Assembly: GCA_009787445.1 (NCBI GenBank)
Contig: WRFX01000005.1
Span: 1-43,710 of the forward strand
Direction: 5' to 3'
From: Chitinivibrionia bacterium
Lineage (GTDB): Bacteria; Fibrobacterota; Chitinivibrionia; Chitinivibrionales; Chitinivibrionaceae
DNA: 43,710 bases
Shown here: in pieces, positions 33,723-41,032 of the stretch
Position numbering within the stretch: the stretch's first letter is position 1
How the letters are laid out: each line of letters opens with the position of its first letter
The notes under the pieces: generated by a model
What the model was told of the DNA's origin: nothing
What the model saw: only the letters and a program-made list of their open reading frames with translations
Databases searched by the model: none
Position numbers and translations under genes: made by a program

Positions 33723-33887
33723 ATGGATGGAATTTCACTCGGAGGCGAAGTTTTAGGCGCGGTAAATATAGCGATGTTAAGAAAAACGCAGGATTTTGCG
33801 GCGCAACAAGTATTAGATTTAGTTCAGTCGTTGCCGCAATCGCCAAGCGGAGCGGGAATCGGCGCAAACATAGACGTTACAAGATAA
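33723..33887 (+). CDS. YjfB-family putative motility protein
   Basis: This 54-residue protein has the size and pattern of the YjfB family: an acidic start (MDGISLGG), a helix with VNIAMLRKTQDFAAQQVLDLVQ broken here after AMLRK, a Pro/Ser/Gly-rich turn and the closing GANIDVTR. Family members are found beside flagellar or chemotaxis genes, but their role is not known. AAGGAGG lies 5 nt before the ATG. A sigma-28 promoter precedes it and a terminator hairpin begins 7 bp after the stop, so it forms a single-gene transcription unit. Family recognition is from memory of the motif. Confidence 0.85.
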   Translation: MDGISLGGEVLGAVNIAMLRKTQDFAAQQVLDLVQSLPQSPSGAGIGANIDVTR

Positions 33888-33893
33888 AACAAC

Positions 33894-33935
33894 TCGGCGG
33901 ATAGAAATGTCCGCCGATATTTACATTTTTTAATA
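33894..33935 (+). terminator. Rho-independent-type terminator after yjfB
   Basis: An 8-bp perfect GC-rich stem (33894-33901 with 33910-33917, TCGGCGGA/TCCGCCGA) with an 8-nt loop follows the yjfB stop. It is followed by an AT/T-rich tract (TATTTACATTTTTT). This ends the short sigma-28 transcript. Confidence 0.75.
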
Positions 33936-34088
33936 TTTTTTGTTTTCGCTTCATATCATAATTCTTTCGCAATGTTTTTTCTAATCAAACAATATACTAT
34001 CCGCCGTTGCCAAAAATCAATAAAGAAAAATAAAAAATTACATTTTTAGCCCTTGACAGAGTTTCTTCATAAATATTATTTTAGCAGC

Positions 34089-34252
34089 ACGACAAATGTA
34101 GAATTGTTGGGTTTGTTCTCAATAATTCGTTAGTTCTTTACTAATTCCATATTGCGCACGTTGCGGTAAAACTGCCATTGGTTGTTCTACCTACCGTAAC
34201 GTACCGTATTTATTTTAATAGTAAAGAACGTGCTATATTCTACATTTGTCGT
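34089..34252. repeat. Nested inverted-repeat element (164 bp)
   Basis: Three inverted repeats are nested inside one another. The outer 16-bp arms 34089-34104 and 34237-34252 are perfect (ACGACAAATGTAGAAT against its complement). The middle 10-bp arms are 34133-34142 and 34220-34229, also perfect. The inner 11-bp arms are 34158-34168 and 34192-34202, with one mismatch that would be a G-U pair in RNA. No open reading frame, target-site duplication or T-run is associated. It could be a MITE-like insertion, a structured non-coding RNA or a regulatory leader of the next gene. It lies in the longest non-coding gap of the window (33888-34352). Confidence 0.65.
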
Positions 34253-34258
34253 AAAACG

Positions 34259-34264
34259 TATAAT
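34259..34264 (+). promoter_or_regulatory. Candidate -10 box of the lipoprotein gene
   Basis: A perfect TATAAT sits 7 bp beyond the nested inverted repeat and about 90 bp before the lipoprotein start. No good -35 is present at 15-18 bp; the best, TTCTAC at 34238-34243, lies within the outer repeat arm. If used, the promoter overlaps that arm. Confidence 0.3.
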
Positions 34265-34352
34265 TATGGGTAGGACAGCCATATCTGTTTTTTCTCGGAC
34301 GTTGCTTCCTTCATAATATACAATTATTAACTTTTTTACGGGAGGTTGGTTT

Positions 34353-35345
34353 ATGGCAGAAAAGGCAGTATCTTTTCAAATCAAAAAATTGGCGGCAATT
34401 CGAGCGATTGCTATGATGTTTATGTGCGTTGCGTTGTTTTTTACCGCGTGTAGTTTTTTTGGAGAAGACGAAGACCCTGACGATAACGGGAGTGTTGACG
34501 GCGGAAATAACAACGGTAACAACAACGGCGGTAGCCAAAGCAACAAAGTTAGCGGTTTAACGGCGGTAGGCAGTTCGTCAAGCAGTATTACTGTCAGTTG
34601 GAAACCCGTAGCCAACGCCCCTGGTTATGAAATTTATATTAGCGAAACTTCTTCTGATCCTTATACTAGGATAGGTGGTACGTGGTCGAATATTTTATCA
34701 TATGAGAGCCGTGGTTTAGCAGATGCTACGACGTACTATTACAAGGTGAAAACTGACAATGGGTCTCTATCAGAGCCGGTTTCCGCAACTACGTTATTGA
34801 AAGCCCCTTCTGGTGTAAAAGCGGAATCCCTTACTTCTAGCAGTATAACTATAACTTGGAATAATTTTGCGAACGCGACGGGTTATCGTATTTATAAGAG
34901 CGAAAGATCTTCTTCTTACGATACTTACACCGAAATTGGCACTTCGACGACAAACACATATACCGATACGGGATTGCCGTTCAATACTACTTATTTTTAC
35001 AAAGTATCAGCGCGTAATGATGCTTTGGAGGGAGACCAATCAAGTTACGTTAATACGACTGTGTTATTGCACGCTCCTGTAAATGTAACGGCTGTGGGCA
35101 GTTCGTCAAGCAGTATAATTATCAGTTGGGATGCCGTAATGGGAGCCAATTCCTACAACGTTTACATTAGCGAAAGTTCTTCCGGGCTTTATACTAAACT
35201 TGGCAACACAAATTCGTTGTCATACACGAGTAGCAAATTAGCAACCGCTACGACGTATTATTACAAGGTGGAAGCTTTAACAGGTTCCTATGGTTCCGGC
35301 ACAGGCGGACAACTATCTGAACCGGTTCCCGGAACCACAAATTAG
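34353..35345 (+). CDS. Lipoprotein with three fibronectin type III domains
   Basis: The 330-residue protein has a signal peptide and lipobox FTAC (Cys33), then an acidic Asn/Gly-rich linker (38-64) and three Fn3 modules (about 66-148, 151-238 and 241-328). Each has the W and Y(Y/F)YKV core pattern. Modules 1 and 3 are closest: an identical 20-mer occurs at 34569-34588 and 35097-35116, indicating duplication. The gene uses AGG/AGA, GGT, TCT and CCT codons more than its neighbours, hinting at recent acquisition. GGGAGGT precedes the ATG. An adhesive or scaffold role on the cell surface is inferred; no catalytic domain is attached. Confidence 0.87.
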   Translation: MAEKAVSFQIKKLAAIRAIAMMFMCVALFFTACSFFGEDEDPDDNGSVDGGNNNGNNNGGSQSNKVSGLTAVGSSSSSITVSWKPVANAPGYEIYISETSSDPYTRIGGTWSNILSYESRGLADATTYYYKVKTDNGSLSEPVSATTLLKAPSGVKAESLTSSSITITWNNFANATGYRIYKSERSSSYDTYTEIGTSTTNTYTDTGLPFNTTYFYKVSARNDALEGDQSSYVNTTVLLHAPVNVTAVGSSSSSIIISWDAVMGANSYNVYISESSSGLYTKLGNTNSLSYTSSKLATATTYYYKVEALTGSYGSGTGGQLSEPVPGTTN

Positions 35346-37837: not shown

Positions 37838-40800
37838 TTAACGCTCCAAACTTTTGCGTTTAATTTCCACTTCTTTATACACTTCGATTCGGTCGCCGAT
37901 TTTATAATCCGATACTTTTGCAAGCGTAAGTCCGCAGTCAAATCCCGTCGCGACTTCTTTTACTTGGTCTTTGAATCTTTGAAGCGTGTCTATTTTCGTA
38001 TCGGCAATTTCTATGTCGTCGCGAATAAGCCGCGCTGAAGCGTGCCGCTCTACTTTTCCGTCGATAACGTAGCATCCGGGAACCAAACCGATTTTTGGAA
38101 TTTTAAATAATTCGCGAATTTCCACCTGACCTATAACTTCTTCTTTTATGTCGGGGGCAAGCATTCCAATCATAGCCGCTTTTACTTGGTCAATCGCCTC
38201 GTAAATAATTCTGAACGTTTTGATTTCTATTCCCGCGTCCGCCGCGCTCGATTTAATTTTCGGATTCGGATTTATATGAAATCCTATAATAATCGCTCCC
38301 GAAGCGTGCGCTAACATAATATCCGTTTCCTTTATTCCGCCGACGCCTTTAAGAATTATATTTACCTTAATTTCGTCTGTGGATAATTTTTGCAATTCGC
38401 CCGCAAGCGCTTCTACCGAGCCGTCTACGTCGCCGCGAACGATAAGGTTTATCGCGAGCATTCTTCCGTCTTTTATTTTCTGCGAAAGGTTAGCCAAAGA
38501 AACGACGCTTTGCATACTGCGAAGTTCGCGTTCCTTTTCGGCGAGTCGTCTTTTTGCGGCGATTTCGCGCGCTTCTTTTTCGGTTTTGCAAACTCTAAAA
38601 TTATCGCCCGCCTGCGGAGTTCCCGAAAGTCCTAAAATTATCGCGGGGTGTCCGGGCAAAACTTCCTTGATTTTATGTCCGTATTCGTTAAGCATTTCAC
38701 GCACTTTTCCGCTATAAACTCCCGTATAAAAAACGTCGCCTTTGCGCAAAGTTCCCGATTGAATAAGAACCGTCGCAAGCGCGCCTTTTCCTTTGTCAAG
38801 TTCCGATTCTATTACCACGCCTTTTGCGGCTCCTTCGAGCGGCGATTTTAGTTCCAACATTCCCGTTTCCAAAGCCAAAAGTTCAAGCAAATCGTCGACT
38901 CCCGTGCCTTTTTTCGCCGAAATTTCTACGCTTTGCACTTTTCCGCCGTAAGATTCTACCAAAACGCCGTAATTCGCAAGTTCTCCCTTTATTTTATCGG
39001 GATTTGCGGTAGGAAGGTCAATTTTATTTATCGCCACGACAATAGGAACTCCCGCCGCTTTCGCGTGGTCAATCGCCTCTTTTGTCTGCGGCATTACGCT
39101 GGAATCCGCCGCGACTACAAGCACGACCACGTCGGTAATTTGCGAACCGCGCGCGCGCATCGCCGCAAACGCTTCGTGTCCGGGAGTGTCCAAAAACGTT
39201 ACCGCCCCCTGTTTTGTCTGAACCGAATAAGCCGCAATATGCTGCGTAATTCCGCCCATTTCAAACGAAACGACGTTTGTTCGGCGAATATAGTCCAAAA
39301 GCGAAGTTTTTCCGTGGTCGACGTGTCCCATAATCGTTACGACGGGCGGACGAGGAAATAATTCGTGTTTATTTTCTTCTTCGGCTTCGGATTCCTGCTC
39401 TTCAAATTCTTCTAAAAGTTGCGCTTGAAATCCAAATTCTTCCGCGAGAAGTTGAATTGTAGAAAAATCGATTCGCTGATTTATCGTAACGAAAAGCCCC
39501 AAATCCATACATTTTGAAATGACGCTCGGAATATCTTCTTCGACCATTTTCGCAAATTCCGAAACCGAAATAAATTCGCTAACCTGAATAATGTTGTTTT
39601 CTTCTTCTTCGCCGCTTTCTTCGCTTTTTTCTTTTTTGTATTTTTTCTTTGCATTTCCGCCGCCGATTTGAGTCATAGTTTTGCGGACGTTCGCTTTCAT
39701 TTCAAACTCTTCTTCGCGATGTTTTTCAACTCTGTCTTTTACCGAGCGTTTTTTGCCTTTTTTCTTTTTTGCGTTAGGGTCTTCGTTTTTTTGCAAAACC
39801 GCCTGTTTATCGGCTAATTCTTTTGCAAGCGCAGAATCGATAACATTGCTCGAATCGCTTTTTTCGCGATAGCCATCGTTTCTGTCTCTGCCGTCGCGAT
39901 TATAGAAATCTCCTCTATGCTGTCTGTTGTCGCGGTTGTCGCGATTATCGCGATTGTCTCTGCCGTCGCGGTTGTCGCGATGTTGCCTGTTGTCTCCTCT
40001 ATTATCGCGATTGTACCCGCCGCTGTTATATCCGCCGCCGCTGTTGTTTCTGTTATCTCTGTTATCTCTATTATTTCCACCGGAATTGTTGTTTCTATTG
40101 TCGCGGTTGTCGCGGTTGTCGCGATTATCGCGGTTGTTTCCTCCCGAATAACCGCCGCGCTGACCGTCGCCGCTTCGTTGTCCGTCGTTTGAACGATTGC
40201 GAAAATCCCTTTGTCCGCTATGTTGTCCACCCTGTTGTCCGCCCGACGAATGCTGACGTTGATTGCCGTTATTTCCTCCGTCTCTGTTTTGGCGATTATC
40301 GCGGTTGTCTCTATTGTCGCGATTATTTCCTCCGCCTCGCTGACCGTCGTTAGGACGGTTGTCGCGATTATCCCGATGTTGCCCCCCGCGATTGTGCCGA
40401 TTTCGTTGCCCGTCCTGACGTTGCCCGTCCTGATTACGCTGTCCGTCTTGATTGCTACGTTGCCCGTCTCTGCGTTCGCCGCGTTCTCCCGAACCTCTTT
40501 CGCTTCTGTTGCCGTCGTGCTGACGTTGCCCGTCAAAATTTCCGCGATTCCCGCGGTCGCCTCTTTCGCCGCGTTCTCTGTGTTCGCCGCGGTCGCCTCT
40601 TTCGCCACGGTCTCCGCGTTCGCCTCTGTTGTGCGAACGGGAATCGGATTTTTGTCTCGAATTGCCGTCGGAATTTCTGTTGTTATTGTTGTTTCCCGAT
40701 TGCCTTTGACGTCTGTTTTCGTCGTTTGCGTGCGCGGAGTTTCCAGAATGATTTGGCGCGGAAGTAGCGTTTTCGCCGCCGTCCGCGTTTGTCGGCGGTA

Positions 40801-41032
40801 TATACGCTCTTCTTTTTTCGGCGCGGCTTCCTATGGTCGCGGTCGCGAATTTTTGCTTCGCCATTTCCGCGCCTTCCTTCATCTTTTCCGAAATTTGCTG
40901 TTTTATCGATTCGTCGATAGTCGAATTGTGCGCTTTAATTTCGGCGTGTCCGAGTTTATGCAGCACGGATATAACGGCGTCGGTATGAAGTCCCATATCT
41001 TTTGCCAATTGCGAAATTTTTACAATTGCCAT
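37838..41032 (-). CDS. infB: Translation initiation factor IF-2
   Basis: IF2 brings initiator tRNA to the 30S subunit and promotes subunit joining. The 1064-residue protein has an N-terminal IF2N-like domain (1-55) and a second at about 480-540. The G domain starts near 562 with G1 GHVDHGKT (569-576), G3 DTPGHEAF and G4 NKID, followed by domains II-IV. Between the N-domains lies a disordered insert: residues 129-390 contain no lysine and are built from NRD, ERGDRG, DGQR and GG units. The core is canonical; the insert makes the protein about 200 residues longer than usual. AAAGGA precedes the ATG. It is 18 bp after nusA. Confidence 0.97.
39863..40648 (-). repeat. Low-complexity repeat tract within infB
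   Basis: This tract encodes IF2 residues 129-390. The DNA is made of imperfect short units (such as GATAATCGC and CGCGACAAC on the coding strand) translating as repeated NRD, with ERG/DRG units at the N-terminal side and DGQR units in the middle. It produces long spurious frames on both other strands. Such tracts change length by slippage, so this part is the likeliest site of strain variation or assembly error. Confidence 0.85.

Follow-up and report, generated by a model that had tools for sequence, protein, structure and literature searches.

A multicopy leader RNA family with a predicted loop-tail pseudoknot, and its possible role as a shared switch for exported-protein genes

Riboswitches and leader attenuators usually occur in few copies per genome, in front of the genes of one pathway. 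In SAM-II and PreQ1 riboswitches, a loop pairs with the 3′ tail, and the resulting pseudoknot lies beside the ribosome-binding site (RBS) or the expression platform. MITEs and mobile promoter elements are short, dispersed and bounded by terminal inverted repeats. The locus described here has traits of all of these systems: it is one copy of a multicopy, folded RNA family, previously undescribed and, in the genomes searched, restricted to one bacterial genus, in which a single RNA architecture with near-identical loop and tail fronts dozens of unrelated, mostly exported proteins. The element has the appearance of an RNA switch common to its downstream genes.

Architecture of the leader in the window

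The window, i.e., the whole stretch of 43,710 nucleotides that was analyzed, contains the three nested inverted repeats on which the original prediction was based. The repeat search recovered the outer pair as a perfect 16-bp match between 34089–34104 and 34237–34252, exactly where it had been placed. The middle pair (34133–34143 with 34219–34229) is perfect as well and measures 11 bp rather than the 10 bp first given; its sequence is not conserved among the copies introduced below, while an equivalent stem is present in their folds. The inner pair, at about 34158–34168 and 34193–34203, comprises 11 bp including the one G-U wobble already noticed, and is paired in the fold. A further hairpin, H1 (34102–34126), occupies the 5′ side of the junction. 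The repeats of the 164-bp span are thus real, but its 3′ boundary was set too early: the conserved unit runs to 34280, because a tail strand, GGUAGGACAGCC (34269–34280), can form 12 bp with the near-invariant apical strand, GGUUGUUCUACC (34180–34191; family consensus GGUUGUUCUGCC), with a duplex energy of −18.3 kcal/mol. The entire element is a + strand RNA of 195 nt (34086–34280), which is matched by the covariance model R1 with 77 bits over model positions 1–179 of 179.

This RNA starts just 3′ of a promoter (34053–34082) with a −35-like TTGACA (34053–34058) and a −10 sequence TATTAT/TATTTT (34074–34082, with TATTAT at 34074–34079), in line with the earlier remark that a −10 box lies beyond the outer arm. 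It ends about 60 nt 5′ of the Shine-Dalgarno (SD) region GGGAGGTTGG (34340–34349), in which a family-specific GGTTG is complementary to CAGCC of the tail, and the candidate controlled gene follows on the same strand (34353–35345), encoding a lipoprotein of 330 aa with Fn3 repeats (PF00041, E = 6e-23). The absence of a T-run, as originally noted, holds only for the region considered at that time: a terminator-like, U-rich stretch exists just outside of it, at about 34268–34297 on the + strand, where the tail could form an alternative hairpin followed by a U run, albeit a weak one in this copy (−6.8 kcal/mol, z = −0.8).

The + strand folds at −60.5 kcal/mol, compared to −32.8 ± 4.1 kcal/mol for dinucleotide shuffles (z = −6.8, 0/200), and the − strand folds less strongly (z = −5.2), which fits an RNA that is read from the + strand. 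Nesting by chance was considered very unlikely from the outset, and the probability that the repeats are nested by chance, or represent a decayed sequence, has become negligible: the z-score and compensatory changes among 87 homologues speak against it, and nothing emerged in its favor after the homologue search.

Around the locus, synteny with the sister genome G004 is broken: the genes to the right are conserved there, and the genes to the left, as well as the lipoprotein, are not. Upstream of the promoter, a strong hairpin, TCGGCGGATAGAAATGTCCGCCGA (33894–33917), is found 3′ of a small ORF (33723–33887), of which it is probably the terminator; its CGGCGGATAG arm recurs in inverted orientation at 33997–34006. 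Further downstream, at 37838–41032 on the − strand, the window encodes an IF-2-like protein with a very long N-terminal region of low complexity, containing GERGDRG and DNRDNR repeats.

A dispersed module of promoter, leader and RBS

A BLAST search of the own genome (G000) with the window element yielded only one partial relative, of 27 bp, on contig C184. The sequence next to it is similar to that on the right of the window element, and through this flank, further copies with very low BLAST scores were reached. In the partial relative (L002:440–580), the promoter, the right flank and the beginning of the outer stem are still present, but inner stem and loop are missing, and it looks like a deletion derivative. 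All copies found from this flank share the 12-mer AGGTTGTTCTGC, and the pattern RGGTTGTTCTRC has 10 matches in G000 and 16 in G004, with none for the reversed control in either genome. Their architecture is near-constant: a −10 box, the outer stem at the RNA start, a short hairpin and a long inner stem with the apex CCU-loop-AGGUUGUUCUGCC, followed by the 3′ arm of the outer stem and the tail GGCAGARCARCC. Twenty-one copies were aligned by hand according to sequence and predicted structure, and 20 rows of equal length (alignment A1) served to build R1.

The search for further copies that had been proposed with the original prediction accordingly has a clear outcome: among the best 150 candidates scored per genome, R1 identifies at least 27 full-length copies in G000 and at least 60 in G004, which are probably lower bounds, and 67 of these 87 matches are sequences outside the training set. 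Of the 27 copies, a few could be duplicates introduced by the assembly, since the contig pairs C44/C99 and C8/C19 of G000 carry identical leader copies and flanks. No copies were found in three genomes from other genera of the family (best 150 candidates per genome), and among 168 genomes of the phylum only G000 and G004 had matches, in a search of the best 16 candidates per genome that may miss weak relatives. A control search of 260 kb of G004 sequence and the remainder of the window returned no R1 matches; the E-values of R1 are rough. Exact-pattern scans gave 19 isolated matches in 85,000 genomes and one in viral sequences, none of which was accepted by the covariance model, and similarity searches of plasmid and phage DNA revealed nothing useful. 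None of 4227 Rfam families matches the element above its gathering score, and no description was found in the open-access literature searched. In many G000 copies (e.g., L217–L225; L118), a second conserved stem-loop, CGGCAATAACAATAACGTTTTTGCATAA, lies 3′ of the leader tail; its pattern has nine matches in G000, all of them downstream of leader copies, and none in the sister genome.

In nearly all 87 copies, a TATTATTTT-like −10 box precedes the modeled RNA start by about 12 nt, and a gene on the same strand begins within 130 nt downstream in 68 of them. Hence, a leader controlling the Fn3 lipoprotein, one of the options raised originally, is supported by the fixed promoter spacing and the adjacent genes, and the element displays two hallmarks of cis-regulatory leader RNAs: a secondary structure backed by compensatory changes, and an upstream promoter combined with a same-strand gene at leader distance. 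Over all assigned genes, the start codon follows at a median distance of 66 nt, with gene starts called by a simple score for SD and start codon. GGTTG after the SD occurs in 28 of the 68 element-linked RBSs and in 5 of 156 control genes. The downstream genes are diverse: their mature proteins fall into 57 families, 45 of which are singletons, and Pfam matches include Fn3, GLUG, Listeria-Bacteroides repeats, OmpA, BspA-type LRR, CotH, glycosyltransferase and FRG domains. N-termini resembling signal peptides are found in 49/68 element-linked and 50/156 control genes (OR 5.5, p = 4e-8), as called by a hydropathy heuristic and with membrane proteins included in the control count.

Leaders that are 70–84% identical precede genes that are unrelated to each other and mostly encode exported proteins. 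When 61 pairs with unrelated proteins were compared, the point at which the DNA ceased to be similar had a median position of +3 nt relative to the start codon (IQR −17 to +37), such that the shared DNA typically spans the promoter to the start codon and sometimes enters the signal peptide. This homology, the partly deleted relative on C184 and the missing synteny of the window locus would all be expected if the promoter-leader-RBS module were chiefly a mobile element or one dispersed by recombination, spread in a MITE-like manner or by gene conversion, with a fold that serves propagation or expression strength rather than switching. However, the copies are old and diverged, yet their base pairs covary, most of them are in leader position and orientation, and neither a transposase nor target-site duplications were noticed. 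Dispersal as the main explanation is regarded as unlikely. Dispersed copies are indeed what the MITE-like option had implied, but MITEs proper are near-identical and independent of gene orientation, whereas the copies here are diverged and mostly gene-oriented. Since they have retained their pairing, carry a promoter and an RBS, and end near start codons, they do not behave like inert remnants of transposons. Dispersal and regulation are compatible, and MITE-like spread may be either a rival or a complementary account of how the module was distributed.

The own promoter, a size of about 200 nt and the terminator-like 3′ hairpins of many copies would also suit small RNAs that act in trans and have their 3′ end at the tail hairpin, with the downstream genes being served by other promoters. 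However, the short distance to the start codon leaves little room for a second promoter, and the RBS and start region belong to the conserved unit, which makes such small RNAs a very improbable explanation. The preferred reading, with moderate confidence and as far as sequence comparison can tell, is that of a dispersed promoter-leader-RBS module whose RNA acts as a cis-acting, pseudoknot-controlled attenuator of a secretome regulon.

Covariation and the loop-tail pseudoknot

A structured RNA, another of the original options, is supported by dozens of homologues with strong compensatory change. All R1 matches were combined in alignment A2 (85 distinct copies), in which 95% of the cells are standard pairs, as compared to 38–52% when partners are slid by 1–3 columns. 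The folding and covariance analysis that had been suggested reveals double compensatory changes in 14/14 pairs of the outer stem, which is 98–99% paired, and in 6/6 pairs of H1. Because A2 was fitted to R1, these nested helices lean towards the model. The loop-tail pairing, by contrast, is absent from R1, and still 97.7% of the cells of this helix are paired over the 85 copies, with a mean duplex energy of −18.9 kcal/mol. Two of its pairs show double changes, G-C to A-U and C-G to U-A, in three copies each; in the window, the loop ends in CUACC and pairs with GGUAG of the tail, while most copies have CUGCC and GGCAG. It is therefore firmly predicted that the loop (GGUUGUUCURCC) and the 12-nt tail 3′ of the outer stem form a long-range pseudoknot.

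Most of the variation in this helix is on the tail side, with A or G opposite an invariant U, and about 15% of the loop-tail cells are U-G, which implies that the + strand RNA is the paired form. The same cells bear on the idea that the copies are integron-type attC sites or other recombination sites of single-stranded DNA, for which palindromic sites beside diverse accessory genes could be cited. U-G pairs favor RNA of one strand; moreover, the copies are mostly scattered, 5′ of genes and equipped with a promoter, and no integron integrase above the cut-off is present in G000 or G004, while G001 has one and no copies. Such a recombination site is thus barely credible. A retron msr-msd likewise found no support: the leading Pfam/NCBIfam families in the downstream proteins do not include a reverse transcriptase, and inspection of the neighboring window ORFs revealed none that is recognizable.

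The conservation of the apical strand exceeds what pairing requires, and the tail-side bias of the variation points in the same direction. The leader could be bound by an RNA-binding protein or by an RNA acting in trans, either of which would recognize the invariant loop GGUUGUUCUGCC and affect mRNA stability, membrane localization or translation without transcription attenuation; targets that are mostly exported proteins would agree with this. However, recognition of the loop leaves the complementarity of the tail to the downstream arm or the RBS unexplained, and no partner has been identified; this explanation is distinctly unlikely. The pseudoknot could also be purely structural, e.g., for mRNA stability.

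Just 5′ of the tail, AUGAAUU/AUGAUUAU (34256–34268) is conserved across copies and has no supportable pairing partner. Beyond this motif, the loop and the tail, no conserved ligand-binding core is evident. Pairing of AUGAAUU in the tail with the 3′ arm of the outer stem, which would give a competing hairpin, was dropped, as the tail does not track stem changes in the alignments. The 16-bp arms were also considered as an operator of the BlaI/MecI type, an idea that was abandoned because the arm sequences vary between copies while their pairing persists.

A candidate switch and its relation to known systems

By sequence, the tail has three possible partners: the apical loop, a downstream arm and the RBS. 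The downstream arm, GCUGUUUnUGC, is followed by U-rich sequence, and the tail motif pairs downstream with at least 6 bp in 56/60 copies of G004 and 19/27 copies of G000; in 37 of the G004 copies, at least five of the next ten bases are U. In most G004 copies, the tail hairpin is clearly stronger than its counterpart in the window. The U tracts are imperfect, and the terminator reading is weaker in G000 than in G004. For the RBS, duplexes with the tail of the same copy are stronger, at −9.1 kcal/mol, than those with control RBSs (−6.5 kcal/mol, p = 7e-8). Pairing is equally good with the RBSs of other copies, which makes this complementarity a feature of the family and not copy-specific covariation; part of the signal could stem from common descent of the module.

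Attenuators and anti-SD switches have such a layout, and from these alternatives, we infer a switching mechanism in which the tail would be the switch strand. As long as the tail is held by the apical loop, the terminator-like hairpin would be blocked and the RBS free, and the gene would be on. If the pseudoknot fails to form, be it due to a ligand, an RNA-binding protein, temperature or a competing RNA, the tail would be released to its other partners: pairing with the downstream arm would attenuate transcription, and pairing with GGUUG of the RBS would block translation. Given the weak tail hairpin, translational control may dominate at the window copy. Because loop and tail are near-identical in all copies, a single signal could act on all of these surface and secreted proteins in concert, and the 12-bp pairing lends itself to direct testing by compensatory mutation. 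That so many unrelated targets share a module boundary close to the start codon suggests a regulon wired by a spreading RNA switch. Tentatively, one might go further and regard the module as a genus-specific cassette for expression and export, which comprises a promoter, the pseudoknotted switch RNA, an RBS and, in many cases, the first part of a signal peptide, spreads as one unit and places newly acquired accessory surface and secreted proteins under a single RNA-sensed signal. If true, the regulon would have arisen through the spread of an RNA switch and not through the evolution of transcription-factor sites.

Among known systems, 6S RNA (RF00013) is likewise a long hairpin that is closed by a stem and transcribed from a promoter of its own, but the copies here are numerous and are leaders of genes. 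The Rfam scan has no RF00013 match at the element; the only one in the genome, a full-length, sub-threshold match on the − strand of C45 (L004, G000:C45:8461–8645; 28.3 bits versus a cut-off of 46.4), is likely the 6S RNA of this genome. With MITEs and mobile promoters, the leader has in common that it is short, dispersed, bounded by what resembles terminal inverted repeats, and located before unrelated genes. Unlike these elements, the module includes an RBS, ends near start codons and is mostly fixed in gene orientation; its arms diverge with compensation, and no transposase was found. SAM-II and PreQ1 riboswitches share the loop-tail pseudoknot near the RBS, while the 12-bp pairing, the near-invariant loop and the much larger fold set the leader apart; the single SAM-II-like match in the Rfam scan is sub-threshold and outside the element. 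The closest resemblance in layout is to cis-acting leader attenuators and riboswitches in general, a class that operates by mutually exclusive antiterminator/terminator or anti-SD pairing. These likewise have their own promoter, a structured 5′ leader, a gene immediately downstream and a switch strand that can pair either upstream, with a loop, or further 3′, with a terminator-like arm or the RBS. In contrast to them, the leader described here has no known ligand core and no Rfam match, is found in one genus among the genomes searched, and, with 27–60 copies per genome, precedes mostly unrelated genes for exported proteins instead of the genes of one pathway.
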